Positions 1 to 14,772 of a stretch of 50,633 nt of DNA are shown here, one piece after another. The position numbers and the translations under genes were made by a program. Each line of letters starts with the position of its first letter. Within the stretch, counting starts at the first letter, position 1. Source of the stretch: Deltaproteobacteria bacterium (lineage in GTDB: Bacteria; Desulfobacterota; Syntrophia; Syntrophales; UBA2185); assembly GCA_026388545.1 (NCBI GenBank), contig JAPLJS010000020.1:1-50633 (forward strand). Reading direction: 5' to 3'. The notes below the pieces were generated by a model. It saw nothing but the letters and a program-made list of their open reading frames with translations. It was not told where the DNA came from and ran no database searches.

Positions 1-1158
1 CAGTTCCGGGAAAAAGTCCGTCGCCTCATATGCCTCATCCAACAAGCGGGACTTCATATACTTTTCAAAATACCATTGAGGAATCGCTTCCAGCGCCTGA
101 TCCACCAGCAGGTCAGCCATGCACGGCCTCTCCTTGCCGTAGAATGCCCTCCAATAATGTGTTGTGCCGATGACTTCTTCAGGCTTGATACCACTGAGCT
201 CTTCCAATGCCTTGTTCCAGTAGAGCACCCTGTGGTCCTTCCCGATTACAAAGGTAGGAAGGGGGGAACCCTGAATAACGTTGTACAGTCGCTGTTCGCT
301 TTCCTGGAGTTTTTCCTCTATCTGTTTACGGTCAGTGATATCCTTTGAAACAACAGTTACAGCTACTGTTTTTCCTTCTGTACTTTTAACAGGACTGAAT
401 GTCCGGAGAAAATACCTTCTGTCTCTTTCACTTTCATGCTCATGCTGGATAAATGTGCCGGTGTCGAATACATGTTCCACATACTGGGTAAATTCACACG
501 CGTCGTCCTCTGAATGAACCTCACTATACGTTCTCCCTACTACTTGATCCCAGGGAAGACCAAACCTTTCTAAGTGTCTTTCATTCATAAACAGATACTT
601 GCAATCTCTATCTACAAGGTACATTGAATCTGCAGATGATGCCAGGGATCGATATTTCTCCTCAGATTCTCGCAATGCCTCCTCCGTCCGCTTACGTTCG
701 GTTATATTCCTGGCAATCTCAAGACAGGAAACAATTTTCCCGCCGGCGTCTCTGATGGTGTTCGCTGTATTTTCCCAGATGGTAAGTTCTCCGGTCGGCA
801 TTATTACTCTTCTTTCGGATGTATGGGCTTTACCGTCTCTGTATGCCATTTTCACCGGACATCCGTCACAAATTGTATCGTTACCTTCGTAGACCCGGTA
901 ACATTTTTCCCCCAGTCGGTCTCCGAAAGCGTTCTTCAATACCTCATTTTGATAGATGATATTATAATCTAAATCCTGGATGCTTACACCGGATACCATT
1001 GCATCTATAATGGACTGGAGTTTTTCCTTCTCCGCGTACAGTTCTTCTTCCGCCCGCCTGTGCCTCCATTCTCCCGCGTTCAATTCTGAAACAAGCTGGC
1101 GCATTTCTTCAAGTTCTTTTATGAGCTGCCTTTTTGTCTTATATTTATCTTTCATCAT
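1..1158 (-). CDS. Multi-PAS sensor protein, N-terminal part (runs off the left edge)
   Basis: The reading frame is open from an ATG at 1158 (a second ATG lies at 1155) to the window edge, giving 386 residues with no stop. A short coiled-coil-like segment (residues about 8-45, rich in E/K/R) precedes three PAS domains at roughly 46-155, 167-280 and 288-386. PAS domains 1 and 2 end in the usual PAC-type signatures (ARNITERK, SKDITDRK). PAS1 carries Cys86, Cys97 and Cys100 (the KCY...CDGCP pattern), which suggests a redox or metal-sensitive site. There is no signal peptide or membrane segment in the visible part, so sensing is probably cytoplasmic. The output module lies outside the window; a histidine kinase is the likeliest, but a GGDEF or sigma-54 activator output cannot be excluded. 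The gene is divergent from the metallophosphoesterase gene at 1475. Confidence 0.85.
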   Translation of the reverse strand, partial: MMKDKYKTKRQLIKELEEMRQLVSELNAGEWRHRRAEEELYAEKEKLQSIIDAMVSGVSIQDLDYNIIYQNEVLKNAFGDRLGEKCYRVYEGNDTICDGCPVKMAYRDGKAHTSERRVIMPTGELTIWENTANTIRDAGGKIVSCLEIARNITERKRTEEALRESEEKYRSLASSADSMYLVDRDCKYLFMNERHLERFGLPWDQVVGRTYSEVHSEDDACEFTQYVEHVFDTGTFIQHEHESERDRRYFLRTFSPVKSTEGKTVAVTVVSKDITDRKQIEEKLQESEQRLYNVIQGSPLPTFVIGKDHRVLYWNKALEELSGIKPEEVIGTTHYWRAFYGKERPCMADLLVDQALEAIPQWYFEKYMKSRLLDEAYEATDFFPEL

Positions 1159-1474
1159 ACATCTCTTTAAGAGAAGCGATTGAATGCTTAAATTATACAC
1201 TATTTTTAGAATTTTTGTTAATGGTGATTTGTAAATTATTTTCTGAAGGGCTGCTAACTCTTTTTGATAGGTTTTGCAGTTATAAAGGTAATAATTTACA
1301 GCAGTTTTATCAGTGGTACAAAATTTTATGTTTGTATGTCCTTTCACTTGTGACTTTATATGATGACATGATAGAATCAATCTAAAGAAGGATTATCAGG
1401 CATTTTTATATCGATAACTTTTAAATAATAGCAAACTTTAAGATTATGATCGTTCCTCAATATTTTAAAGAATT
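1159..1474. other. AT-rich divergent intergenic region
   Basis: This 316 bp gap separates the divergently transcribed PAS sensor and metallophosphoesterase genes. It is clearly AT-rich and short frames through it show no protein-like sequence. A possible plus-strand promoter is TTGTGA at 1348-1353 and TAGAAT at 1372-1377 (18 bp spacer), about 100 bp before the metallophosphoesterase start. No terminator or repeat was seen. Confidence 0.5.
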
Positions 1475-2293
1475 ATGAAAATCGTTGCAACCGGTGACAT
1501 CCATTACGACCTGATACGGAACCAGACGGAACAAGAGGCATTCCTTCAATTTATAAAAAGCATGGAAGCTGAAAAACCGGATGTCCTTGTACTGGCGGGC
1601 GATACGGTGGGGTTTGGCTCCCCGAAACTGGAAGAATGTTTGAATTATTTCAGAACAATTGCACCAGTGCGACTTGCAGTTTTCGGAAACCACGAATACT
1701 GGAGCCATGAAGGTGGTACGATCAGTCATCTTGAATTCATGAAAAACAGAATCAAGGGATGCGGCTTTCAACTCCTGGATGAGAATCCGGAGATTATCGA
1801 TGATATCGGTTTTGCGGGCAATTGCTCCTGGTATGATTATTCTTTTGCTCCCAAAGAACTTCCACCACGTTCATCATACGAAAAAAAGATATTTGGCGGG
1901 CATATTATCTGGAATGATGTCCGTTTTATCAGGCTTGGCAAAACGGACAGTGACTATATGAATGAACTCCTGAAAAAGCTGAAGGAAGATATACGGACGC
2001 TTGAATCAGAGGTGGATCAGATTGTTGTCGTTACCCATCACATCGGTTTTGTGGAAATGTTAACATTATTGGACGATTTTCCCGGATTGAATTTCTGCAA
2101 TGCCTTTATGGGCAGTTATAGACTTGGAGACATGCTCTTACTACATCCCAAGGTAAGATACCACATATGTGCACACACTCACGTTCAGAAAGTGGTAAAA
2201 AAAGAACATCTGATTTCGATCAACCCGGGTTCGACGTATGATGAAAAAAAATATCTCACTATGGTAATACCTGAGGATAATGCGGAGGTTTAA
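1475..2293 (+). CDS. Calcineurin-type metallophosphoesterase
   Basis: A 272-residue cytoplasmic protein with the five metallophosphoesterase signature blocks in order: GDIHYD (Asp8, His10), AGDTVG (Asp43), GNHEYW (Asn72, His73), THHIG (His188, His189) and AHTHVQ (His234, His236). These build the usual two-metal site that hydrolyses phosphomonoesters or diesters. The canonical GHTH is AHTH here, which is tolerated in the family. The substrate cannot be read from sequence. Its stop is two bases before the GTG of the DUF1460 amidase, whose Shine-Dalgarno sequence lies inside this gene's last codons, so the two are co-transcribed and probably translationally coupled. That context hints at a cell-wall role, which is inference. 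Confidence 0.88.
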   Translation: MKIVATGDIHYDLIRNQTEQEAFLQFIKSMEAEKPDVLVLAGDTVGFGSPKLEECLNYFRTIAPVRLAVFGNHEYWSHEGGTISHLEFMKNRIKGCGFQLLDENPEIIDDIGFAGNCSWYDYSFAPKELPPRSSYEKKIFGGHIIWNDVRFIRLGKTDSDYMNELLKKLKEDIRTLESEVDQIVVVTHHIGFVEMLTLLDDFPGLNFCNAFMGSYRLGDMLLLHPKVRYHICAHTHVQKVVKKEHLISINPGSTYDEKKYLTMVIPEDNAEV

Positions 2294-2295
2294 TA

Positions 2296-3114
2296 GTGAT
2301 TTATCGTTCAGCAGATCGTATTATTTATGACGACCTGATTGATTCTGCCTGTCGGAAATGGAAGAGAGCACAATCAATCAGTGAACTGATGCTCAATGTG
2401 GGAAAATATTTTCTTGGGTTTCCTTATGTGAGCAATACACTTGAAATTGAAAGTGAGGAGAGCCTTGTCATAAACTTAAGGGGATTCGATTGTTTCACCT
2501 TTATCGAAAATGTTGTGGTGCTGGCAAGGCAGATCAGGGAGGAAATATTCACCTTCGAGGACTATGCTGCCGAGTTGGAAAAAATCCGTTACCGCAATGG
2601 TATAGTAAACGGATATTCTTCGCGCCTTCATTATTTTTCAGATTGGCTCTTCGATAATGAACGTAAAGGGGTTGTCAAGGATATTACCGGGGAAAAGGGA
2701 GGGGAACCTTTTTTAAAAGAAATCAATTTTATGACGATGCATCGGGATGATTATACCGGGTTGAGCACTGATGGATCGTTCCGGGATATGAAGACTGTTG
2801 AAATGAACCTGTCCGGCAGGTCGCTGTCCTATATTAAAAAAGCTGAATTAAGACGGTTCGAGAATGGAATTGAGAACGGGGATCTTATCGCCGTTACTAC
2901 CGGTATCGAGGGATTGGATGTCGTACATGTCGGTCTGGCTGTCCGCATCGGGAGAAGGATTCATCTTTTACATGCATCGAAAATCGAGAAGATGATTGTT
3001 CTTTCCGTTACCACTTTGTATCAGTATCTCTCCAGAAGAAAAATGATGACCGGAATTATGGTTGGGCGGGTTAATCCGGTTTGTCAAAATGATGATAATC
3101 TATTGATGGCCTGA
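2296..3114 (+). CDS. DUF1460 / N-acetylmuramoyl-L-alanine amidase-like protein (NlpC/P60 fold)
   Basis: A 272-residue protein matching the DUF1460 pattern. It has a nucleophile Cys66 in GFDCFTFIEN, His211 in VVHVGLAV and a further His226 in LLHAS, an arrangement shared with NlpC/P60 cysteine peptidases. Family members are annotated as N-acetylmuramoyl-L-alanine amidase-like and act on peptidoglycan fragments. No signal peptide is visible, so it probably acts on imported or cytoplasmic fragments. The start is the GTG at 2296, chosen because GGAGGT at 2284-2289 sits just upstream and the gene then abuts the metallophosphoesterase. The last 44 bp overlap the convergent M15 peptidase gene. Exact bond specificity cannot be read from sequence. 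Confidence 0.82.
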   Translation: MIYRSADRIIYDDLIDSACRKWKRAQSISELMLNVGKYFLGFPYVSNTLEIESEESLVINLRGFDCFTFIENVVVLARQIREEIFTFEDYAAELEKIRYRNGIVNGYSSRLHYFSDWLFDNERKGVVKDITGEKGGEPFLKEINFMTMHRDDYTGLSTDGSFRDMKTVEMNLSGRSLSYIKKAELRRFENGIENGDLIAVTTGIEGLDVVHVGLAVRIGRRIHLLHASKIEKMIVLSVTTLYQYLSRRKMMTGIMVGRVNPVCQNDDNLLMA

Positions 3115-3619
3115 AATATCCTCCCCACCGCCATCCCCGATTAAGGAATTCCCTCACAATGGAATGGGTTTCGGAAAGAGTTCCTGATCTTTCCGGATCA
3201 TAGATTGCATCTGGCGGATCAATCCGTCCGTTTTCGTATATGACGGGATTCAGATACGGATTAATATCTACAGCCTTTCCATACGCGTGGTGTGATAACC
3301 TTTCCGTGCCCGAAACGAAGCGGTAGTTAAAGGCGGAGGAGTTGTTATCTGCCATTGACATGTCGTCCGACCAATCGTATTTCACAATCGGGACCACCCG
3401 GGCTATGGGGAATTTTAACCGTTCGATTATCTCGAAAATCTCGATCACCTCTTTTTCTACACCCCTGTGAACGACAAGTTGCCCCTGGTGTAATCGACCA
3501 TCGAAAGCCCGGTAGCATACAGTGATAAGGCATAAGGAATCGATAACCTCCTTGGGTGCTTTTGTGCCAAAAACGGCTTCCTCAAAGGTCATACTACTGT
3601 CGATTATGGGAATATTCAT
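3071..3619 (-). CDS. M15-family D-Ala-D-Ala carboxypeptidase / L-Ala-D-Glu endopeptidase-like protein
   Basis: A 182-residue protein with the M15 zinc site: SHHAYGKAVDIN (His111, Asp118 in the HxxGxAxD pattern) and DYHHF (His177) near the C-terminus. The Trp-rich RGWRWGG before it is also typical of M15C enzymes. M15 enzymes trim peptide stems of peptidoglycan. No signal peptide or SH3/PG-binding domain is visible, so it is a minimal catalytic domain. It is convergent with, and overlaps by 44 bp, the DUF1460 gene. On its own strand it follows the DUF4922 gene by 6 bp, so GT2, DUF4922 and M15 appear to be one minus-strand operon. Confidence 0.85.
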   Translation of the reverse strand: MNIPIIDSSMTFEEAVFGTKAPKEVIDSLCLITVCYRAFDGRLHQGQLVVHRGVEKEVIEIFEIIERLKFPIARVVPIVKYDWSDDMSMADNNSSAFNYRFVSGTERLSHHAYGKAVDINPYLNPVIYENGRIDPPDAIYDPERSGTLSETHSIVREFLNRGWRWGGYFRPSIDYHHFDKPD

Positions 3620-3625
3620 AAGGCT

Positions 3626-4645
3626 TTAAAGTGATACGGCTTCAATTGCTTTTTGAATCGTTTCGGGGTCCACGGAAATTTCTTTGTAAATGTTCTGAAT
3701 CAGCTCATGATCGATGGCGATAAAATCTTTTTCTATCGGGGTTATAATAACCCCTCCCATATCCACCAATCCCGGCGAGATCAGTATCCGTTCACTCCCC
3801 GGTAAAAAATAGACGTCGGGACGATGCTTGCGTCGCGGGAAAATCACGACTTGCCATGCATTTCTGTTATATGAGCACAGGAGATTCAGCATCGGCTCAT
3901 CGGGTGTTGACAGGACACTTTTCAGCGCCGAAATAACGTTCATTAAAGCGGTACTGACGGCGCCATAATTATTTCCTTCAATAATAATAATTTCCCGCCC
4001 CACGTTTTTTACTCTCAAGAGGGATATGCCATCTCCACGTTTCATGAGAATCCGTTTGTCGCTGTCCTGAATTTCTTTCTCGATCGGCAGTACCCCGACC
4101 GGAGCTGCCTGAATATGCATGTGGTCCGGTGCGGAAGCCCCGCTTTGTGGTCCGTTGTAATATATGTTGAAATCCGGACCGAAATCCTTTGCCAATGACA
4201 AAAATGCCGGAAGGGCGCCTTCTGAAGACTGGGGAATATGTCTGATGTGGGAAACTGTAAAATGCTTCGGAAATATCGGATAAGGGTTGCAGAGTATAAT
4301 AAAATCATGCCGGTATACAATACACCGTTGCGCATCAGGGAGATTTTCGAGACATAGGAAGCATGGCCTTTTATTAATGGATTTTTTATCAACCGGCGCC
4401 GCAGTGCTGATAATCCTTGCCGGATTGAACTGGAGCTTTACCGAAAATCCACTGCAACGGAGCTCACGCACACGTATATTGCCCATGGCAATATATCCAT
4501 GGGAGAGTTCTTGCCACGAAGTTTTCTGCTGTGTGAGCAGTTCGAGGCAAAGGGCAGCTAGTGACGGTTCGGAAGCATTACTGTTGAATGATGTAAAAAT
4601 TCTTTGTTTCAGCAGGTTGTCGATCAGCATGGTCTTATTTCGCAA
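3626..4645 (-). CDS. DUF4922 protein, HIT-like nucleotide-sugar phosphorylase/transferase fold
   Basis: A 339-residue protein with the marks of the DUF4922 family: a CFLC pair (Cys95, Cys98), [32 protein letters not shown] and a second-half segment ending in a conserved hydrophobic core. The DHMHIQ stretch (His175, His177, Gln179) parallels the HxHxQ active site of GalT, Ap4A phosphorylase and GDP-hexose phosphorylases, where the first His carries the nucleotidyl group. A nucleotide-sugar phosphorylase or transferase role is therefore reasonable but unproven. The longest frame opens with TTG at 4645 and overlaps the GT2 gene by 11 bp. ATG at 4630, four bases after the GT2 stop, is an equally plausible start (334 residues). 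Neither has a strong Shine-Dalgarno sequence. Confidence 0.78.
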
Positions 4646-6113
4646 TCAACTTTTGACGCGCCATGATCTCGATCGTACGAATCTTGTCTTTGAACGCATC
4701 ATTACGATTAATCTTCTCAATGGACAGTGCGGCGTCGGTATTTCCCTCCCATCGGCGGCAAAAATAGATACTCTCATAAATTCTGCCTATCCGATACTCT
4801 CGTGACAGCCGCAGGGCTATCGCATAGTCTTCTCCATAGCCGACATTCAGGAATCCGATAGCGCGAAGAAGCTCAGTGTCAAATGCTCTCGGGGCTCCCA
4901 GGCCGTTGATGCGCAACGCATTATTGCGTCCGTTGGCGTCGGTCCATTCCCTGTGGTCGATTAAACCGGGTGGTATTTGCTCCAGCAATTCATTAACGAG
5001 CGTATAAGATCCGGTAACCATTGCAAAGTCGCCGTTTCGGAATACGTTGATGATCTTCTGCAACGTCTCAGGACTGCTGTACAAATCGTCTGAGTCTAAC
5101 TGAACGGCGTAGCGACCGCAAAATTCCGAAAAGACCGCCTCGTTCCAGCACCCTCCGATACTGAGATCGAATCGTGATGGAATGATATGCTTGAGTGCGG
5201 GATAACGTTGAGAGAGCTCAACCAGGATTGGTGTTGTGCCATCCGTGGAGTGGTTATCAACAACAATAACATTGAACGGAAAGTTCGTCTCCTGAGACAG
5301 AGCACTTTGTACCGCGTTCGTGATTGTTCTTAAACGGTTACGTACCGGAATTACCACACTTGCCTCGACAGGGAATTTGTGCTCTGAGACGGGTACCTTC
5401 TTAAAGTACGGTTCGAGGCAGGCGCCGATGTTTTTTAAATGCCGTGTAACAACCTCCTCCATTTCTTTTTGTACGGCTTGGTTGCGGGGGTCGGCATAAT
5501 CGAACAGGCTTTCACGTGACGATCCCTCTTTGCCCGTTTCGTCTATTTCACCCTTTGTGTAGAGAAATTCCTGAATATGAAAAAGTCGGTGTTCAATGGA
5601 GAGCTTCAATCGGAGGTCATATAAACCGGCGTGTTTTACCTCCGGTATGGCGCCGTATTTATTGAATACTCGGATAACTGCGGGGATAGAAAAAAGGATT
5701 ACAGACCCGAAGTCAAATGCATCACGGATGCTTCCCGATTGATAGTCATTCAGGGGATGTTCAATAAGTTCTCCATTTTTCTTTTCCAAATAGTCACAAT
5801 AGACCATACCTGCATCTGTCAATTCCGCTACATCGATAAAACGTTCCAGGGCGCCGGGTGTAATATGAATTTCCTGAGATTGAGTGAGTATGAAGAGAAA
5901 ATCTGTGCTGATTTTTTCGATAAGTTTATTGAGCGCCTTGCCCGAAGTCAGGGATTCGGCTTGCATGCCTTCACATTTCGGCCATGGTGACTTGAATGAC
6001 GAGTCATGGAGAACGATAACTTTGTCAATCAAGGGTGATTCCATCAAGGGTTGAATCATCCCTGTAAAATATGACTTCGCACTGAACGGAATAACGGCGG
6101 TTATCTTGCCCAT
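4635..6113 (-). CDS. Two-domain family 2 glycosyltransferase
   Basis: A 492-residue soluble protein. Residues about 250-460 form a clear GT2 (GT-A) domain: [27 protein letters not shown], the metal-binding QLDSDDLY (340-343) and GYGEDYAI, which looks like the acceptor or base motif. Residues 1-200 resemble a second, degenerate GT-A domain ([25 protein letters not shown]) without a convincing DXD. There are no membrane segments, so it is not a typical undecaprenyl-linked enzyme. It is the first gene of a minus-strand run with DUF4922 and M15, overlapping DUF4922 or abutting it. Donor and acceptor cannot be deduced. The neighbours make a peptidoglycan or amino-sugar substrate the first thing to consider. 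Confidence 0.85.
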
Positions 6114-6245
6114 GGGTTATCTCCTAAAAGCGTATCCTGATTATATCCGCGATAAGTACTATCTTTCTCACCCGTTTCATAGGTATCATTTTTTAACACA
6201 GAAATTAATGGATACAAAGATAAAGTTTTTGCCTTATGAACTTAC

Positions 6246-6273
6246 TTGACAAATAGTATCGTTATGCTATCCT
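6246..6273 (+). promoter_or_regulatory. Sigma-70-type promoter of the dodecin gene
   Basis: TTGACA at 6246-6251 and TATCCT at 6268-6273, with a 16 bp spacer, lie about 60 bp before the dodecin start. Downstream, in the leader, TTAACACG occurs twice in tandem (6293-6300 and 6302-6309), which could be a protein-binding site. Confidence 0.55.
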
Positions 6274-6334
6274 TCTTCAAAGTGAGGTGAGGTTAACACG
6301 TTTAACACGGTCAAGAGAAAGGAGGGGGCATAGT

Positions 6335-6544
6335 ATGTCAGTATACAAAATTATTGAAATTGTTGGAACAAGTCCCAAATCATGGGAAGATGCTGCCCAG
6401 GTCGCCCTGACAACCTCTTCAAAGTCACTCGAAGATTTGAGAGTTGCGGAGGTTGTAAAGCTGGACGTTACCGTTGAAGATGGGAAAATAACGTCCTTCA
6501 GGGTAAGACTCAATATCTCATTCAAGTACAAAGAAGGTGCATAG
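6335..6544 (+). CDS. Dodecin-family flavin-binding protein
   Basis: A 69-residue protein of dodecin length and pattern: MSVYKIIEIVGTSPKSWEDA, a helix with SSKSLEDL, then VEDGKITSFRVRLNISFKY. Dodecins assemble into hollow dodecamers that store or buffer flavins or CoA. The start at 6335 is preferred over upstream codons because AGGAGG at 6320-6325 precedes it and homologues begin at this point. In characterised dodecins an aromatic residue (RWFEV or AWVKEQ) stacks on the isoalloxazine ring; here that segment reads LRVAEVV and has no tryptophan, so the ligand may differ. The gene stands alone, with its own promoter and a strong terminator. Confidence 0.9.
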   Translation: MSVYKIIEIVGTSPKSWEDAAQVALTTSSKSLEDLRVAEVVKLDVTVEDGKITSFRVRLNISFKYKEGA

Positions 6545-6581
6545 ACGGATTGTGTTCACTATAAAATAACATTAAAAAGGC

Positions 6582-6606
6582 AGAGGGGTCGAAAGACCCC
6601 TCTTTA
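6582..6606 (+). terminator. Rho-independent terminator after dodecin
   Basis: A perfect 9 bp stem, AGAGGGGTC / GACCCCTCT, with a GAAA tetraloop, is followed by TTTAT. It ends the dodecin transcript before the clpS promoter. Confidence 0.9.
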
Positions 6607-6648
6607 TCTTTGATAACACTTCATCATCTACTGCCACAAATAACCCCA

Positions 6649-6677
6649 TTGACAGACTGTCTTCCTTGTCTTATATT
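6649..6677 (+). promoter_or_regulatory. Near-consensus sigma-70 promoter of clpS-clpA-aat
   Basis: TTGACA at 6649-6654, a 17 bp spacer and TATATT at 6672-6677 form a near-consensus promoter 54 bp before the clpS ATG. It sits directly after the dodecin terminator and so defines the start of the N-degron operon. Confidence 0.75.
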
Positions 6678-6730
6678 ATTCAACAAAAGAGTGAATAGAA
6701 AACTGCTGATTTACAGTTTGGGAAATTTAT

Positions 6731-7054
6731 ATGCCGAAGTACCCTGATCCCGATTCAATGAATGATAGAGATATCAAGCTAGAACCCGACACTGTTCTGC
6801 AAGAGCCAAAGATGTATCGGGTTATACTTTATAATGATCATTATACCACGATGGACTTTGTGATAGAAATACTCATGGTTGTGTTCCACAAGCCGGCTGC
6901 GGAAGCGACCAAGATCATGCTTGATGTCCATAAAAAAGGGGCGGGTATGTGCGGGGTGTATACGTATGATATTGCCTCCACCAAAGTGGCTCATGTCCAT
7001 AGCATGGCGAAGAGGAGAGAATTTCCTCTAAAGTGTTCATTGGAGGAGGCCTGA
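6731..7054 (+). CDS. clpS: ClpS adaptor (N-recognin)
   Basis: A 107-residue ClpS with the diagnostic core: YRVILYNDHYTTMDFVIEIL, FHKPAAEATKIMLDVHKKGAGMCG, YDIASTKVAHV and a C-terminal KCSLEEA. In the family the YNDxxTxMxFV segment forms the hydrophobic pocket that binds N-terminal Leu, Phe, Trp and Tyr, and the conserved HxxG part of the following helix contacts the alpha-amino group. ClpS hands such substrates to ClpA. The gene is 16 bp upstream of clpA and in the same operon as aat, which makes the same N-degrons. The N-terminal 25 residues are polar and likely flexible, as expected for the part that enters the ClpA pore. Confidence 0.96.
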   Translation: MPKYPDPDSMNDRDIKLEPDTVLQEPKMYRVILYNDHYTTMDFVIEILMVVFHKPAAEATKIMLDVHKKGAGMCGVYTYDIASTKVAHVHSMAKRREFPLKCSLEEA

Positions 7055-7070
7055 CCATCGGGGAAATACT

Positions 7071-9338
7071 ATGAAAATAAGTGAAAGTCTCAATCAAATT
7101 ATCATGGCCGCTTATGCTGAAGCCAATACGCGGTCTCATGAATTTGTGACACCGGAACACCTTCTGTACGCCGCACTTTTCTTTGATGATGGGGCCGAAA
7201 TCATCCAAAGATGCGGTGGCGATCCGGAGCATTTAAAAAGAGTATTATCAAAGCATCTCCGAGAGAGCAATCCCGTTGTGGGTGACGCCCAGTCCGTCCA
7301 GTCACTGGGATTTCAAAATGTTCTGGAGAGGGCTGTATGGCATACAACCTCAGCACAGAAGAATATCGTGGAATTAGGAGATGTTCTCGTTTCCATTTTT
7401 GATGAAAGAGAATCCCATGCCTCATTTTTCCTGAGAAAAGAAGGTGTTACTCGACTTGCTTTGCTTAATTATATCTCTCACGGTGTTTCCATATTACCTG
7501 AAGCGACGGATACGCAAAAGCAGGATAGCAAAAGGGATGAAGGTGAATCTGAACAGCCCTCCAGGGAAAAGGATTCAGAGCAAAACAAGATATTAAAGGC
7601 ATTCACGACTGAACTGACGGCCAAGGCGAGGGCCGGCGAGATAGATCCCCTGATTGGGAGAGAGGATATTCTTGAAAGGACCATTCAGGTGCTGTGCCGG
7701 CGATTCAAGAATAACCCGGTACATGTCGGCGAGCCTGGTGTAGGGAAAACGGCTATTACCGAAGGACTTGCGCAGCTCATTGACGATGGAAAGGTTCCGA
7801 AACGCCTGAAGGGTTCAAAGATTTATGCCCTGGACATGGGTGCGATCATAGCCGGTACAAGATTCCGGGGAGACTTTGAAGAGCGTATGAAACGGGTGAT
7901 TGCGGAACTTCAGAAACAGGAAAAGGCAATACTCTTCATTGATGAGATTCATAATATTGTCGGTGCAGGGGCTGTTTCCGGAGGTTCCCTGGATGCGTCC
8001 AATATCCTGAAGCCCTCACTGGCTTCGGGAAAGCTCCGATGTATTGGTTCCACAACATACGATGAATACCGTAAATATTTTGAGAAAGATGGAGCCCTGT
8101 CCCGCAGGTTCCAGAAAATTGAAGTATCCGAGCCTACAACAGATGAAACCTTCAAGATTCTGCAGGGTCTCAAGAATAAATACGAAGAATATCATCGTGT
8201 GTCATATACCGAAGAGGCCCTTCGGGCGGCTGCGGAATTATCCGATAAATATATCAATGACCGCAGGTTGCCGGACAAGGCGATCGATGTGATTGATGAG
8301 GCAGGCGCTCTCGCCAATATGAAGGATGCTGATGAATCTACGGAAAAGATTATTAATAACCATGACATTGAGGCGATCGTTGCAAAGATCGCCCGGATTC
8401 CTGAGAGAAACGTTTCTTCCTCCGATCTTGACAAGCTGAAGGATCTGGAGACAAGTCTGAAGGGGAGGATCTTTGGGCAGGATCAGGCGATTGATTTTGT
8501 GGTAGAGGCAATCAAGCGTTCACGGGTAGGGTTCCGTGAACCTCATAAACCCATTGCCTCTCTTTTGTTTGTGGGGCCGACGGGTGTGGGTAAAACTGAG
8601 CTGGCTCGCCAGCTTGCTGATACTCTCGGAGTGCCGCTCAACCGTTATGATATGAGTGAATACCAGGAGAAGCACACCGTGGCAAAGTTTGTGGGGGCGC
8701 CTCCGGGCTATGTGGGTTACGAAGAAGGTGGACTCCTTACAGAGGCTATAAGGAAGAACCCGCATTCTGTCCTGCTCCTCGATGAAATCGAGAAGGCCCA
8801 TACTGATATATTCAACACCCTCCTTCAGGTTATGGACTATGCAACACTGACGGATAACAGCGGAAGAAAAGCGGATTTCCGCAATGTGGTTGTCCTCATG
8901 ACATCGAATGCGGGAGCGCGTGAGATGGGCAGGCAAACTATCGGATTCGAGGCCAAGACCATCAACCGGGATGCAGTATTTACGGCGGTGGAGCGAATCT
9001 TTTCCCCCGAGTTCAGAAACCGACTCGATGGCGTAGTAAATTTCAACGGCCTGACCCATGAAGTGGTTCTCTTGATTGTCAAAAAGGCCATCGGTGAATT
9101 TTCAGTTCAGTTGCAGGAGAAAAATGTATCACTGCAGGTTACCGACCAGTGTTATGATTGGCTTGGCCGTAAAGGTTATTCTGAGGAGTTCGGGGCAAGA
9201 GAGATTGCCCGGCTCATCCAGGACAAGATAAAACGGTTCTTTGTGGATGAGGTGCTTTTCGGGAAACTGCATAAGGGCGGCACTGCTCTTGCGGATATTG
9301 AAAATGATGATGTGGCTTTGCGGGTCATTGAAGGGTAA
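7071..9338 (+). CDS. clpA: ATP-dependent Clp protease ATP-binding subunit ClpA
   Basis: A 755-residue class 1 Clp/Hsp100 unfoldase. It has a Clp N-domain (about 1-145), a charged linker (145-175), AAA-1 with Walker A GEPGVGKT (220-227) and Walker B FIDE (289-292), and AAA-2 with Walker A GPTGVGKT (502-509) and Walker B LLDE (569-572). There is no long coiled-coil middle domain, so this is ClpA rather than ClpB or ClpC. The IGF tripeptide (624-626) in the SNAG...TIGFE segment is the loop that docks ClpP. A histidine stands just before the first Walker A (VHVGEPG), where a hydrophobic residue is usual. ClpP is not encoded in this window. Confidence 0.97.
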
Positions 9339-9379
9339 TCATAGTATCCCCTGCCTTTTAAAAAGATATCAACTATCTC

Positions 9380-10072
9380 ATGCCTATTTTTCGACTGGGT
9401 GACGAAACCACATTTCCCCCCGTGCACCTTGCATCGGAGAGCGGGATTCTTGCCATCGGCGGCGACCTTTCACCCGGCAGGCTTCTGGAGGCTTATCGCC
9501 AGGGGATTTTCCCATGGTATTCCGATGGTGATCCCATTATCTGGTGGTCTCCCAATCAGCGATTCGTATTGTTCCTGGAGGAACTCAAGGTTTCCCGGAG
9601 TATGCAGAAGGTATTACGGAAGAACATTTTCAGGGTTACCTATGATCATAACTTCCGTAAAGTAGTCACATTGTGTCAAAAACCGAGGCGGAAACAGAAA
9701 GGGACATGGATTACGGATGATATGCTTGAGGCGTATTGTTTTTTACACCAACTGGGGTTTGCTCATTCTGCGGAGGTCTGGTACGGGGAAGAACTCGTCG
9801 GCGGTATCTACGGTGTGTCTCTTGGCAGGTGTTTTTTCGGCGAGTCTATGTTTTCGCTCATGAGTAACGCGTCAAAAGCGGCGCTGATCAATTTGGTTTA
9901 CAAGTTAAAAGAAGTGAAGTTTGAATTCTTAGACTGCCAGGTATATACAGCTCATATGGAAAACATGGGTGCGCGCTATGTTCATCGGAGTGAGTTTATT
10001 GACCTGCTCAAAAAAGGATTACAGCATGAGACCCTTCGAGGGAACTGGGAGTACATGCCCGAGTTCAGCTGA
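9380..10072 (+). CDS. aat: Leucyl/phenylalanyl-tRNA-protein transferase
   Basis: A 230-residue Aat, the length expected for the family. Signature segments are GILAIGGDLSP, YRQGIFPWYSDGDPIIWWSP, KGTWIT, AYCFLHQLGFAHSAEVW, GGIYGVSLGRCFFGESMFS and FLDCQ. The enzyme transfers Leu or Phe from tRNA to proteins with N-terminal Arg or Lys, creating the primary N-degrons recognised by ClpS. It lies 41 bp after clpA, so recognition, unfolding and tagging are encoded together. The 3' end overlaps the convergent NDK-like gene by 8 bp, and no terminator is visible between them. Confidence 0.96.
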   Translation: MPIFRLGDETTFPPVHLASESGILAIGGDLSPGRLLEAYRQGIFPWYSDGDPIIWWSPNQRFVLFLEELKVSRSMQKVLRKNIFRVTYDHNFRKVVTLCQKPRRKQKGTWITDDMLEAYCFLHQLGFAHSAEVWYGEELVGGIYGVSLGRCFFGESMFSLMSNASKAALINLVYKLKEVKFEFLDCQVYTAHMENMGARYVHRSEFIDLLKKGLQHETLRGNWEYMPEFS

Positions 10073-11255
10073 CAAAAGCCGAACTACTGCCACCATCCTT
10101 CAGCCAGTTGAGGATTATTTCCTTGCAGTCGTCACCAGTGTTTTCATAGAGGCCTATAATCTTTCGTTCACGGATGGCGCTCGGGATTGAGTCGGAGGCA
10201 TGTGCGGCATTCTGGAGGATGTTCTGTCCAAAATCAGAACGAATGGTGCCTGCCTCTGCCTGTGCCGGATCAGTCACACCCAGGCGTTCACGGATTTGTA
10301 TAACCGCGTTGGGGCCTCGGTACAGAAGCGCCAGCGATCGGTGCATGCCGGGTTTATTGCGGTCACCGGGAGATACCCTGGTCGGATCAACGCCGGTCAT
10401 ATATTTGACAATTAACGAAAACTCGTGCGCGGCGTTCTTATTAGCGATAATGTCGGCCATGGCATTGTATTCTTCAGAGCCTATCTTGAAATCAAAGAGC
10501 CCGCTGATCCCTTCACTGATTTTATCCGCGATCCGGAACTTAAGTTTTTTCTTGAACTCATCACGGAGAGCTCCATAGAACTCCTCACCCTGGGCGGCGC
10601 TCATCCGAATCACACGGGCGCCAACGAGTCGTAGTCCTGTCTTGGAAAACATGTCGATCATGTTGCCGGGTCGAACCGAATGCTTGAAAAAATTGTCCGG
10701 CTTCAAAATTACCAGTGTTGTTTCCCCTTCAGCACACTCATCGTAGATACCGGAGTCGTTGAATCCAAGCCGTGCGAACATCTCCAAATTACTTTTCGCA
10801 TATTCAGGATTCGTCGGTACCAATACCGCCGGTTCGAAGTATCGGACGGTTCCATCAGGGGTGGTAATATAGTCGCAATAAGTTCCCCGGATGGTTCCGC
10901 GAATGGCCTCTGATTCCGCCTCTGTTGTAAGCTTGCCGACAACTTCGTAGATCCGCTCCACGGCATTTTTACCCTCAAACAAAAGGAACAGGCACCGGTT
11001 CGCCTGACCGAGGATATTTTCATGTCTGAGGTTCTGATCTATGTAATCGATGAGCGCGTTTTCTACTTTGGGATTAATACTGAGACTCTTAACACGTTTT
11101 ATATATTCATCGACTAATTCATCGGATGGTCGCATCATCCGAATACCGACAAGATCGCAGCCGGAAAACGACATGAGGCGCGCAATAATATTTCCTGTCC
11201 GTGACTTGATGAGGCTATAAGGGGTGATGAGCACATATGTTAATTCGGTTGACAT
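10065..11255 (-). CDS. Tandem nucleoside-diphosphate-kinase-like protein
   Basis: A 396-residue protein made of two NDK-like halves. Residues 5-148 begin TYVLITPYSLIKSRTGNIIARL and contain GTIRGTYCDY but no active-site histidine context. Residues 179-370 begin TLVILKPDNFF, have RPGNMIDMFSKTGLRLVGARV and GTIRSDFGQ, and keep His352 in NAAHASDS, the counterpart of the phosphorylated His in the NxxHGSD motif of NDK. The second half has an insertion (about 232-300) relative to the 140-150 residue classical enzyme. It may be a real NDK with a regulatory pseudo-domain or a protein with another role. It stands as a single gene, convergent with aat. Confidence 0.8.
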   Translation of the reverse strand: MSTELTYVLITPYSLIKSRTGNIIARLMSFSGCDLVGIRMMRPSDELVDEYIKRVKSLSINPKVENALIDYIDQNLRHENILGQANRCLFLLFEGKNAVERIYEVVGKLTTEAESEAIRGTIRGTYCDYITTPDGTVRYFEPAVLVPTNPEYAKSNLEMFARLGFNDSGIYDECAEGETTLVILKPDNFFKHSVRPGNMIDMFSKTGLRLVGARVIRMSAAQGEEFYGALRDEFKKKLKFRIADKISEGISGLFDFKIGSEEYNAMADIIANKNAAHEFSLIVKYMTGVDPTRVSPGDRNKPGMHRSLALLYRGPNAVIQIRERLGVTDPAQAEAGTIRSDFGQNILQNAAHASDSIPSAIRERKIIGLYENTGDDCKEIILNWLKDGGSSSAFVS

Positions 11256-11503
11256 GTAAATTATCCTTTATATTACGGGAGCTTATATTTATGTAAATTC
11301 CGGTTATCAGTAATATGTCTGTAATACAGAATCAAAGAAATATTCCCTATTTCAAAGTTATATAGAACGAGAATAGCTGTGTGTCAACGATAAAGAACTT
11401 ACAATATAGTACCTTATTCCTTTTCAGGTACCCACCCGCCGGTTGTGAAAAAAATTCACAGATCGATAAAATACTATCTTAAAGATGCTTTGTCTGAGGC
11501 ATA

Positions 11504-12520
11504 TTATCGAATTGATTGTCTGCTTTTCAGAGTGTCCTGACACCTCAAGGCAAGATTTCTCAGTAGTGGGAGTCGGTATGTTCTGGTGGCGGCATCAAGG
11601 AGATTTGCAATAGCGTTGGGGATGTGCGAGAGGAATTCTGAAAGGTCACGTTTCAATCCTAAGAATCCATAAGCGCCGAGAGCCTGCATGAGGCGCTGTG
11701 CCGATGCCTCCCGAAATTTCTCCTGAAACTCACTCCAGTCATCCCGATCCCAACGCTGGTAGTAACACTGAAGCAGCTCCATCCGTTCACCCTCTGTCAG
11801 AGAAACATAAGGATCATAGAGGAGTGATCCCAGGTCATAAAACAAATTGCCGAAGCGCATACCCTGGAAGTCTATAAATACCGGTTCGCCTTTGCAAATC
11901 ATAATATTCCGGGACTGAAGGTCTCGATGCACAAGTGTGGGTTTTATGTTCTCAAGCCGGTCAGATAAGTCCCTCAATTCATCTTCTAGTTTTTCCCCTT
12001 CAGTTAAACTTAACTTGATACCGCAAACCGCCCGAACAAAGTTTTCACAGAAATAATTTCGCTCCCATCGGTAAAGATCCGGACCGAATCCCTCCATCAG
12101 GGGAACCTTTTCCGAAGGGAAATCCTCTGCCGGAAAGGAATGGAGTCTGTACGTAATGGCCAGGGTTTTGCGGTAATATGCGCTTCTTGTCGACCATGAT
12201 TCATGCCGAAAAGACCAAAGATCCACATCTCCCAGGTCTTCCATGACAATGAAGCCCCTTGCAGGATCATGAGCCGCGATCCGGGGCGCCGGTACATCGA
12301 TCTCCCGGAGGAACTCCGCAATTGCTGCGTAGTAGTTGTTCTCCTCATGATCCCTGTCGTACTGCATAAAGATAACAGAACCATTATTTCCATAACGGAC
12401 TCTCTGGAACGATCTGCTCGATCCGCCTCCTGTCACTGGCGCCATTTGGACGGTAATCGATTTTCCAAGACCCAGTGTCTGACGTACAAAGGGGAGTATT
12501 TCATGGTGTAGGTATTTCAT
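11504..12520 (-). CDS. amgK: AmgK-like anomeric sugar kinase (MurNAc/GlcNAc kinase)
   Basis: A 338-residue aminoglycoside-phosphotransferase-fold kinase with a Gly/Ser-rich loop TGGGSSRSFQRV (30-41), the hinge VMEDLGDVDLW, catalytic HRDLQSRNIM (His198, Asp200, Asn205) and metal-binding FIDFQGMRFG (Asp217). This pattern and length match AmgK, which phosphorylates MurNAc (and GlcNAc) at C1 in the anabolic recycling route known from Pseudomonas putida. It follows the MurU-like gene on the same strand after a 127 bp gap holding a palindromic repeat, and MurU uses AmgK's product. Substrate choice cannot be proven from sequence. Other homoserine- or choline-kinase-like roles are less likely because of the neighbours. 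Confidence 0.8.
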   Translation of the reverse strand: MKYLHHEILPFVRQTLGLGKSITVQMAPVTGGGSSRSFQRVRYGNNGSVIFMQYDRDHEENNYYAAIAEFLREIDVPAPRIAAHDPARGFIVMEDLGDVDLWSFRHESWSTRSAYYRKTLAITYRLHSFPAEDFPSEKVPLMEGFGPDLYRWERNYFCENFVRAVCGIKLSLTEGEKLEDELRDLSDRLENIKPTLVHRDLQSRNIMICKGEPVFIDFQGMRFGNLFYDLGSLLYDPYVSLTEGERMELLQCYYQRWDRDDWSEFQEKFREASAQRLMQALGAYGFLGLKRDLSEFLSHIPNAIANLLDAATRTYRLPLLRNLALRCQDTLKSRQSIR

Positions 12521-12545
12521 ATTATTCCGAAAATAACTTTTTATT

Positions 12546-12629
12546 CCCCCTTTGGAAAAGGGGGGAAGGGGGGATTTTTTTACAATCCCATTTGAAAAAT
12601 CCCCCTCAATCCCCTTTTATAAAAGGGGA
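12546..12629. repeat. Large imperfect palindrome of the CCCCCTTT...AAAGGGGG type
   Basis: This 84 bp segment folds onto itself. The left arm holds CCCCCTTTGGAAAAGGGGG and GGGGGGATTTTTT. The right arm holds AAAAATCCCCC and CCCCTTTTATAAAAGGGG. Each arm also contains its own small hairpin. Such C/G-run palindromes are dispersed in many genomes and behave like MITE or REP elements. Here it fills the gap between murU-like and amgK-like genes and may affect transcript stability or read-through. Confidence 0.8.
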
Positions 12630-12647
12630 GCTTGGCATGAAGGTTTA

Positions 12648-13373
12648 CTAAGATTCTTGTCCTGATAGCAAAGCATTCATTTTTTCATATTCCGCCACTG
12701 AACCGATATCGTACCAACGTCCTTCGTCAATAAGCACCCCTGCCACCGATCCTGGTTGTTCTCGGATCATCTCAATAAAAATGGGGATGACCGATTCCAC
12801 TCGACCGGCTTTCAGGCGATTGAGAAAACATTTTTCCACGATATAGATGCCCGTAAAGAGGCAGCTCCTGACGCCCGGGTCGCCCAGGGTGTGTCTCAAG
12901 TCGCATATCTGACCGCGGGCATTCAGATTAACATTTAGAAGCGAGCCGCTGCTCCTCAATGCCAGAGTGACTTCCTGTTTCTCTGTATAATGTGTATCGA
13001 TGAGACGTTGCAATGGCAGGTCCGTAATGGTGTCGCCGTTGTAAATCAGGATCGTTTCGTCATTGTCAAGGAGATCTTCAATGTTCTTAATTCCCCCGGC
13101 GGTATCCAGAAGCACCGGTTCGTGACGGAAGATGATGGGCACACTACACCACTGCTGATCCGGGAATATCTGATGATACACGTCTGCGCAATGGTGGGTG
13201 TTGATGATGAACCGTTTGATACCCGCCGATGTCAGGTGATCCATGGCATAGGTGATGATCGGACGCCCACCGACAGGCAACAGAGGTTTCGGACAGTTAT
13301 TGGTCAGGGGGCGGAGACGCTTTCCCAGTCCTGCACCCAGGATAAAAGCGGTTTTAATAGGTGACATTTTCAT
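12648..13373 (-). CDS. murU: MurU-like sugar-1-phosphate nucleotidyltransferase
   Basis: A 241-residue nucleotidyltransferase with the N-terminal signature GAGLGKRLRPLTNNCPKPLL (13-32), TAGG (91-94), the metal-binding NGD (112-114) and RWYDIGS near the C-terminus. It is short, with no hexapeptide domain, as in MurU, which makes UDP-MurNAc from MurNAc-1-phosphate and UTP. Mannose- or glucose-1-phosphate transferases share the core fold, so the symbol rests mainly on length and on the adjacent AmgK-like kinase. The gene starts 10 bp after the SpoIID-like gene. A second in-frame ATG two codons downstream (13367) is an alternative start. Confidence 0.76.
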   Translation of the reverse strand: MKMSPIKTAFILGAGLGKRLRPLTNNCPKPLLPVGGRPIITYAMDHLTSAGIKRFIINTHHCADVYHQIFPDQQWCSVPIIFRHEPVLLDTAGGIKNIEDLLDNDETILIYNGDTITDLPLQRLIDTHYTEKQEVTLALRSSGSLLNVNLNARGQICDLRHTLGDPGVRSCLFTGIYIVEKCFLNRLKAGRVESVIPIFIEMIREQPGSVAGVLIDEGRWYDIGSVAEYEKMNALLSGQES

Positions 13374-13383
13374 CGATGGTTTT

Positions 13384-14772
13384 TCAATATAATTTCTTCA
13401 GTTCTGCACTGCAAAAATAGTGTTTTAAAATGGATTCTGCTTGTGATCCTTTCAAAGCCATTACTGCCGCCCCAATCTGACATAGGCCGACACCGTGTCC
13501 CCAACCGGCGCCATTCAGGATAAAGCGAATTGGAAGCCCGGAGGAATCACGCTCAACAGAAACAATGAAGGCGCTGCTGTAGAGATGGCTCCGGGAAAGC
13601 CAGCGTCGAATATTGAGTTCCTTGCCTATGGTGAGAGTCTTTTTTGATCCCTTGATTTTCAGCCGCATAATCCTGCCTGACGGACCCCGCTCAAGAGGAG
13701 CGAGATTCCGGAGATTACCGAAATCCATTCCCGATTTCTCCCGGATGATATCTTCCAGTTCATTACGTGTATACACCACCTTCCACCGGAAGAAATCCGT
13801 GGTTTCCTGATCGAAGGAGGGGAGAATCCGCCGCAGGATGTTCCCATCTGTCGTATAACAATATGCTTCAGGATTTGAGAGAATCCATCGCTTGGCTTCG
13901 GCTTCCGTGCGAATCGGGTTGTGAAGAATGGCAGAATCGGAAACAGAGGTAAGGTACGGAATTGGCGTATTCTCCCAGGTGTTCTCGAAATTGTCCGTCA
14001 GACCGCCGCAGGCTTTATGGTAGCGGGCATCGCAAACCTCGCTGTTATGGACAAGAAATGTACCGCGTGTTGCGTCAACGGCATCCCGGGCGTTTCCTGA
14101 TATTAATCGGGTAACACCTTGATACCGCTGGCAATGATCGTCCGCACAAACGTCAAAAAGCGTGTGGTCGACTCTATCGTACCAGCGGATACGCTCATCC
14201 ATGTGCTGGTCCGACCCGGGCGATACCGTATCGGCGCCTTTTACCTTTCGGGCGCGGCTCAGCATGGCCATGAGCCAGCTTCGCGATGTTATCGCGTGGG
14301 CCTTCAGAAATTCCAGCGGAGCTTCAGCGCTCATTTCTGACGAAATGACGCTTGCCAGGTAATCTTCTAAAAGGATTTCATTGATGGCAACCAGCGTTTC
14401 ATCTTTATCAAAAATCAGTCTCAGATCTCCCCGGAACGTCTGTTCCTGTTTCCTTTCCCAGTGGAAATGAACACCGATTGTCACATCAAAGAGGGTGAAG
14501 GTGGAATCATTCAAAGGAGTACATCGGATTTCCTTTTGCCGTGCTACCTCGCTGCCGGCGGCATCGTAAAGAATAATATGACACTCTGCAACGCGGACAG
14601 TAAATCCTCCATCGAGCAGCCGGTCATTATCAAGGCGATATGGGCCGTTAAAACACCCGTCGACTTTCCTGCATTGCTCGATGATGCCTACTTTTATCTT
14701 TGGTTCTTCTGTCATCATACTGTTTTGTCTTGCACCATGCACGCCCATATCAGAAACAGGGTGATAATTCAA
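13384..14772 (-). CDS. SpoIID/LytB-domain protein, probable peptidoglycan glycan-strand lytic enzyme
   Basis: A 462-residue protein with the SpoIID hallmarks: ILLEDYLASVISSEMSAEAP (catalytic-type Glu146), KAHAITSRSW, and near the C-terminus NGAGWGHGVGLCQIGA. Characterised SpoIID enzymes are lytic transglycosylases that cleave denuded glycan strands. The insert between the two core motifs (about 170-300) contains a Cys/His pair set (CADDHC, YHKACGG) seen in related proteins. No signal peptide is apparent. The longest frame opens with TTG at 14772, preceded by AAGGG; ATG at 14718 or 14715 would remove 18-19 residues. It leads a run with murU-like and amgK-like genes, so glycan cleavage, sugar phosphorylation and activation appear to be encoded in succession. 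Confidence 0.85.
   Translation of the reverse strand: MNYHPVSDMGVHGARQNSMMTEEPKIKVGIIEQCRKVDGCFNGPYRLDNDRLLDGGFTVRVAECHIILYDAAGSEVARQKEIRCTPLNDSTFTLFDVTIGVHFHWERKQEQTFRGDLRLIFDKDETLVAINEILLEDYLASVISSEMSAEAPLEFLKAHAITSRSWLMAMLSRARKVKGADTVSPGSDQHMDERIRWYDRVDHTLFDVCADDHCQRYQGVTRLISGNARDAVDATRGTFLVHNSEVCDARYHKACGGLTDNFENTWENTPIPYLTSVSDSAILHNPIRTEAEAKRWILSNPEAYCYTTDGNILRRILPSFDQETTDFFRWKVVYTRNELEDIIREKSGMDFGNLRNLAPLERGPSGRIMRLKIKGSKKTLTIGKELNIRRWLSRSHLYSSAFIVSVERDSSGLPIRFILNGAGWGHGVGLCQIGAAVMALKGSQAESILKHYFCSAELKKLY

Follow-up and report, generated by a model that had tools for sequence, protein, structure and literature searches.

A GT2–DUF4922–SpoIID gene module as a possible substitute for NagZ in the recycling of peptidoglycan sugars

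Gene arrangement at the locus

The window, i.e. the whole stretch of 50,633 nucleotides analysed here (positions 1–50,633 of contig JAPLJS010000020.1, Deltaproteobacteria bacterium assembly GCA_026388545.1; forward-strand coordinates), carries a run of three minus-strand genes for proteins in which neither a signal peptide nor a transmembrane segment was apparent by hydropathy. The first gene (4635–6113) codes for a bimodular GT2 protein that matches PF00535 (E=7.9e-19) in residues 252–382 only, the second (3626–4645) for a DUF4922 protein (PF16269, E=1.6e-53; 181 bits at a gathering score of 23.6) and the third (3071–3619) for an M15_4 peptidase (PF13539, E=6.8e-16). The stop codon of the GT2 gene occupies positions 4637–4635, and an ATG codon at 4630, 4 bases further on, is the likely true start of the DUF4922 gene; the alternative TTG start at 4645, as listed for the open reading frame, would overlap the GT2 gene by 11 bases. 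The M15 gene starts 6 bases past the DUF4922 stop. The coupling of the DUF4922 gene to a gene for a soluble GT2 protein, with the M15 gene joining the pair on the minus strand, had been proposed in the initial annotation and is what we find. The peptidase was nevertheless rejected as a core member of the module described below, as it is linked to the pair only in this genome and in one sister family (f2). A 9-pair terminator-like hairpin (6582–6603), readable on both strands, lies upstream of the GT2 gene and downstream of a plus-strand open reading frame (6287–6544).

Genes for a metallophosphoesterase and for an AmiA-like (DUF1460) amidase without obvious signal peptide (2296–3114, plus strand; PF07313, E=1.1e-49) converge with the GT2–DUF4922–M15 run. 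Homologues of the amidase were found near GT2 in six other loci (L032, L039, L041, L043, L086, L118) and near a GH3 gene in L123. A second minus-strand run is located 5–9 kb upstream of GT2–DUF4922–M15 and is separated from it by plus-strand Clp/aat genes and an NDK-like gene. It encodes a SpoIID/LytB protein without signal peptide (13384–14772; TIGR02669, E=1e-46), a MurU-like sugar-1-phosphate uridylyltransferase (12648–13373) and an AmgK-like anomeric MurNAc/GlcNAc kinase (11504–12520). The best NCBIfam matches of the latter two are NF045761 (E=4e-35) and NF045759 (E=3e-23), both under the curated cut-offs. An AmpG-type open reading frame is absent from those listed for window positions 1–14772. 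Adjoining the AmgK gene, a minus-strand gene (10065–11255) codes for a 396-aa protein in which two nucleoside diphosphate kinase-like halves follow each other in tandem; the second half has the NAAHASDS motif with the active histidine, which the first half has apparently lost.

Predicted properties of the GT2, DUF4922 and SpoIID proteins

The GT2 protein consists of a degenerate GT-A domain (residues ~1–240) and an intact one (~250–490). The first shows a GT-A-like beta/alpha pattern but gives no Pfam match and has no conserved pair of acidic residues where DxD would be expected. In the second, DSDD (340–343), ED (428–429) and RRW (453–455) are invariant among 58 distinct homologues. This domain looks catalytically competent and, judged from its family, inverting; with no conserved DxD in the first domain, the protein is predicted to have one catalytic domain only. 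A profile match to chondroitin polymerase 2z86 (E=3.4e-18) is accompanied by a Foldseek match of an AlphaFold model to 2z86/2z87 (E=5e-11) that extends over ~420 columns and covers both domains; the model was built from a two-row alignment, has a pLDDT of 48 and was used only beside the profile matches. The chondroitin polymerase K4CP and heparosan synthase 2 likewise combine two GT-A domains in one chain free of membrane segments. In contrast to these enzymes, the GT2 protein has no metal site in domain 1 and no capsule context.

The HxHxQ site of the DUF4922 protein corresponds to H175-H177-Q179. Both histidines are present in all 55 distinct homologues and the glutamine in 53, the other two having histidine instead. 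C95, C98, H128 and H136 are as invariant in this set as H175 and H177, and we take the CxxC/His residues, as a lead, to be a GalT-like zinc site. A profile of 17 DUF4922 homologues matched the yeast Ap4A phosphorylase Apa2, the top PDB sequence match, across the HxHxQ region (E=5.6e-7). Foldseek matches of the AlphaFold model were led by DUF4931 (4e-6) and Apa2 (1e-5), followed by HINT proteins, and realignment gave Z scores of 11.9 for DUF4931, 10.1 for Apa2, 7.8 for ADP-glucose phosphorylase and 7.5–6.2 for GalT. This model (two-row alignment, pLDDT 52) is of low confidence and was consulted only beside the profile matches; since both concur, the protein is predicted to have the GalT/HIT fold. 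A GalT of the source genome was sought for direct alignment, and none was found. We regard the DUF4922 protein as a putative NDP-sugar phosphorylase, a class assignment in which phosphorolysis and nucleotidyl exchange are not distinguishable by sequence. Apa2, the ADP-glucose phosphorylase of Arabidopsis and GDP-L-galactose phosphorylase have a like fold and an HxHxQ-type site. Unlike them, DUF4922 forms its own Pfam family and is the strict partner of a GT2 protein. Among the papers searched, those that mention DUF4922 deal with the plant GGP, and none was found that connects it to peptidoglycan. Taken together, an HxHxQ-type active site in the DUF4922 protein and the lack of a metal motif in the first GT-A domain, both postulated in the initial annotation, agree with the conservation of these residues, and the structure comparison suggested there led to the GalT/HIT fold.

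The SpoIID protein (13384–14772) shares its domain, the catalytic glutamate and a Cys/His motif with the SpoIID lytic transglycosylase of sporulation and with LytB; E146, the catalytic glutamate, and C209, H213 and C214 are invariant among 30 homologues. It differs from the sporulation SpoIID and LytB proteins in having no apparent signal peptide or transmembrane segment and in being fused or linked to cytosolic enzymes. By hydropathy, a strongly hydrophobic N-terminal segment is seen in none of 12 homologues, nor in any other soluble member of the module examined.

Distribution of the module and its relation to NagZ and AnmK

In a sample of 297 genomes of the phylum, the DUF4922 protein (strong match) was present in 33 and the GT2 protein in 41. 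All 33 DUF4922 genomes also have GT2 (Fisher p=1e-36, a formal value as related genomes are not independent). Of 55 loci in total, 49 have the two genes next to each other or fused: 30 of the 33 in the phylum sample, where two further pairs are apart and one is cut off by the end of a contig, and 19 of the 22 in Bacteroidota. GT2 and DUF4922 form a single open reading frame of 802–866 aa in family f2 (e.g. L032:7865–10249). In a Bacteroidaceae MAG (L031), one open reading frame of 1255 aa comprises GT2, DUF4922 and, at its C-terminal end, the SpoIID domain, and is followed by ampG; this triple fusion was the one locus obtained in a search of genome contigs with the DUF4922 protein. No relatives of the proteins were found in viral contigs. 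DUF4922 is not always needed, as eight genomes have GT2 without it: five of these (L084–L088) retain the rest of the recycling locus intact or nearly so, and in L089 and L090 the GT2 gene is solitary, and a different contig carries SpoIID and AmgK.

The tightest link that we found is that of GT2 with the unexported type of SpoIID, present in 40 of 41 Desulfobacterota genomes with GT2 and in none of 31 without. GT2 and SpoIID accordingly form the core of the module, to which DUF4922 is added in most cases. The co-occurrence of DUF4922 with GT2 and SpoIID genes, which the initial annotation had named as a check, is thus observed, the fusions included. AmgK stands beside SpoIID or GT2 in many genomes, and the locus of many relatives also contains a permease of the AmpG subfamily (TIGR00901, E=6e-51, under its cut-off). 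The order SpoIID–AmpG–MurU–AmgK–GT2–DUF4922 recurs in several families (e.g. L040); it is rearranged in L037 and L118, and AmpG is missing in L047, L049 and L050. AmpG and SpoIID are part of only some module loci in Bacteroidota.

Recycling of peptidoglycan sugars by AmpG, NagZ, AmgK and MurU is known from Pseudomonas and Caulobacter. The present locus likewise unites AmgK-like and MurU-like genes, with an amidase nearby, and an AmpG-type importer is found in the corresponding locus of many relatives. In contrast to the known pathway, the source genome, which is rated 100% complete, has no match to PF00933 (GH3/NagZ), and AnmK was not found in it; GT2, DUF4922 and the unexported SpoIID are present instead. 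The same opposition is seen across 66 genomes: GH3 occurs in 4 of 35 genomes with GT2 and in 25 of 31 without (p=1e-8), or, by family majority, in 0 of 9 versus 25 of 31 (p=2e-5), a comparison in which the GT2-negative set was taken from the top of the list of negatives, not drawn up as a sample, and related genomes are not independent. The GH3 matches in GT2-positive Desulfobacterota comprise three strong ones, in open reading frames of 669–833 aa, and a partial one; NagZ proteins usually have a length of about 340–370 aa.

Among genomes with AmgK, GH3 is present in 3 of 30 with GT2 and in all 21 without. None of the AmgK-positive genomes tested lacks both GH3 and the GT2 module, and the six genomes that have neither GH3 nor GT2 all lack AmgK. 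On the GH3 side, AmgK lies within ~6 kb of GH3 in 9 of 21 GT2-negative genomes, with NagZ–MurU–AmgK clusters in L122 and L126–L128 and a cluster that also includes AmpG and AmiA in L123. GH3 and the GT2 module thus alternate beside the same salvage genes, and the simplest reading of this complementarity, for which GH3 was the one hexosaminidase family searched, is a non-orthologous displacement. In L123 (5290–7350), AmgK and MurU matches are found in one open reading frame of 686 aa, with AmpG-like, AmiA-like and GH3 genes alongside.

A replacement of NagZ is not visible in Bacteroidota because GH3 is nearly universal there (20 of 22 genomes with and 20 of 20 without the module). Within ~6 kb of the module, GH3 matches in open reading frames of ~950–980 aa were detected in three Bacteroidota genomes (G311:C74, G390:C38 and G394:C18; L107–L109); these proteins are possibly exported NagZ-type enzymes. 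AnmK is rare regardless of the module (3 of 41 genomes with and 3 of 31 without GT2), and its absence was therefore dropped as an argument for a ring-opening function of SpoIID.

A parallel is provided by Tannerella forsythia, whose ampG codes for a functional muropeptide permease and is co-transcribed with two annotated glycosyltransferase genes and lytB ('amidase enhancer'); the operon (Tanf_08345–08370) is described as coding for protein glycosylation, too (PMC5388701). AmpG is required for growth of this bacterium on complex MurNAc sources and its main substrates are GlcNAc-MurNAc and GlcNAc-anhMurNAc; no AnmK is predicted for it, and what becomes of anhMurNAc 'remains to be explored' according to the authors (PMC7670621). 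The operon resembles the module in combining glycosyltransferases and a lytB/SpoIID gene with ampG, whereas the cluster lists ybbC and murTKQ in place of the amgK–murU genes of the module loci. From gene order rather than sequence, we infer that the glycosyltransferase genes Tanf_08350/08355 may correspond to GT2 and DUF4922.

Possible routes of disaccharide cleavage

GT2, DUF4922 and the unexported SpoIID very probably have a role in the recycling of peptidoglycan sugars. That they stand in for NagZ is a proposition for which we see even chances. Substrates, nucleotide, direction and SpoIID reaction of the module we infer as follows. AmpG would bring in GlcNAc-MurNAc or GlcNAc-anhMurNAc. GT2, working in reverse, would transfer the beta-linked GlcNAc of the disaccharide to a nucleoside diphosphate, probably UDP. 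DUF4922 would at once phosphorolyse the NDP-GlcNAc, with His177 carrying the nucleotidyl group in the intermediate, and yield GlcNAc-1-P and NDP; this step would pull the unfavourable GT2 step and give back the NDP. The net reaction would be the conversion of GlcNAc-(anh)MurNAc and Pi to GlcNAc-1-P and (anh)MurNAc, and the GlcNAc-1-P could feed straight into the GlmU reaction. The sum would be a glycoside phosphorolysis, a reaction that in other enzymes is known to be close to equilibrium. The fusion of GT2 to DUF4922 may be understood in this way, because an unfavourable reverse transfer would need a favourable phosphorolysis close by. SpoIID, with its lytic-transglycosylase fold, might open the 1,6-anhydro ring in a reversal of the lytic transglycosylase step with water, after which AmgK and MurU would convert MurNAc to UDP-MurNAc. 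This exact relay of reverse transfer and phosphorolysis is a tentative proposal; the opening of the anhydro ring of anhMurNAc by SpoIID is doubtful and the least supported step. A module that substitutes for NagZ with the NDP relay as its leading mechanism is the reading that we prefer, with a probability somewhat short of even. The most far-reaching version, a two-enzyme glycoside phosphorylase (reverse glycosyltransferase and nucleotide-sugar phosphorylase with a recycled NDP carrier) that together with an anhydroMurNAc-opening SpoIID replaces both NagZ and AnmK in two phyla, seems unlikely to hold in full.

The initial annotation had suggested a pair for the production and use of an unusual nucleotide-activated amino sugar. 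The pair and its amino-sugar setting stand, given AmgK, MurU, AmpG and SpoIID in the loci; the direction of synthesis is not supported, because the surrounding genes code for recycling enzymes and the phyletic distribution shows the module in place of NagZ. A breakdown of GlcNAc-(anh)MurNAc after its import, with ordinary NDP-GlcNAc as the intermediate, would fit better and is more economical. Synthesis would nevertheless suit the intact active site of GT2, whose nearest solved relatives are polysaccharide synthases, and the described coding for protein glycosylation in the T. forsythia operon (PMC5388701). In that case DUF4922 would use sugar-1-P and NDP to make an NDP-sugar, or an NDP-sugar would be used directly, and GT2 would glycosylate a cytosolic acceptor (a muropeptide or soluble glycan) that is later cut by SpoIID. 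As AmpG, AmgK and MurU belong to salvage, complementarity with a hydrolase such as NagZ is not predicted by a synthetic role, and no recurring polymer-export or lipid-carrier genes were seen in the loci, we consider this forward direction unlikely. Alternatively, DUF4922 might act as a GalT-like exchange enzyme (UDP-GlcNAc + MurNAc-1-P ⇌ UDP-MurNAc + GlcNAc-1-P) that activates the AmgK product without UTP, for which the GalT uridylyltransferases among the structural matches and the AmgK neighbourhood can be adduced. However, the operon also contains MurU, Apa2 (Z 10) is nearer than any other named enzyme, ahead of ADP-glucose phosphorylase (7.8) and GalT (6.2–7.5), whose scores differ little, and the fusion to GT2 would be left unexplained, so that such an exchange appears improbable.

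The nearest named enzyme and best PDB sequence match, yeast Apa2, might instead indicate an Ap4A or ADP-sugar phosphorylase that serves general housekeeping or the stress response and whose gene neighbourhood is incidental; with fusion and adjacency to GT2 recurring across two phyla, hardly any weight can be given to this explanation. The association with GT2 is stricter for SpoIID (40 of 41) than for DUF4922 (33 of 41), and relatives of SpoIID cleave glycan strands. The cutting of imported saccharides at MurNAc-GlcNAc bonds could thus be a task of SpoIID, and GT2–DUF4922 would only handle the released GlcNAc or trim nucleotide sugars. In the known SpoIID reaction, however, the bond that is cut lies at the reducing side of MurNAc. 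SpoIID could therefore not split GlcNAc-anhMurNAc, a disaccharide imported by T. forsythia AmpG (PMC7670621), and we judge this division of labour to be quite improbable.

For bacteria without a cytosolic NagZ or AnmK, the module suggests another route by which imported wall sugars may be dismantled. It supplies specific candidate genes, so that the use of AmpG-imported disaccharides by such bacteria becomes directly testable, also with regard to the periodontal species T. forsythia. If the relay of GT2 and DUF4922 is true, it would represent a new way of splitting a glycosidic bond with its energy saved and would provide functions for DUF4922 and unexported SpoIID proteins of Desulfobacterota and Bacteroidota.

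Note that genes of two further kinds adjoin the module in some genomes. In three Desulfobacterota loci (L037:8860–10344, L040:9038–10588, L118:9062–10762), DUF4922 carries a fused GNAT acetyltransferase at its N-terminus, and in three loci of Bacteroidota (L097:10620–11144, L108:10172–10681, L109:8603–9091) a gene for such an enzyme stands between GT2 and DUF4922; the acetyltransferase possibly re-acetylates deacetylated amino sugars. Five Bacteroidota loci have a BadF-type kinase gene next to the module (L097:12699–13694, L098:5397–6344, L107:11268–12212, L108:5619–6569, L109:6072–7055). The best match of these kinases is the N-acetylglucosamine kinase family NF046058, under its cut-off, and they are perhaps MurK/NagK counterparts of AmgK.
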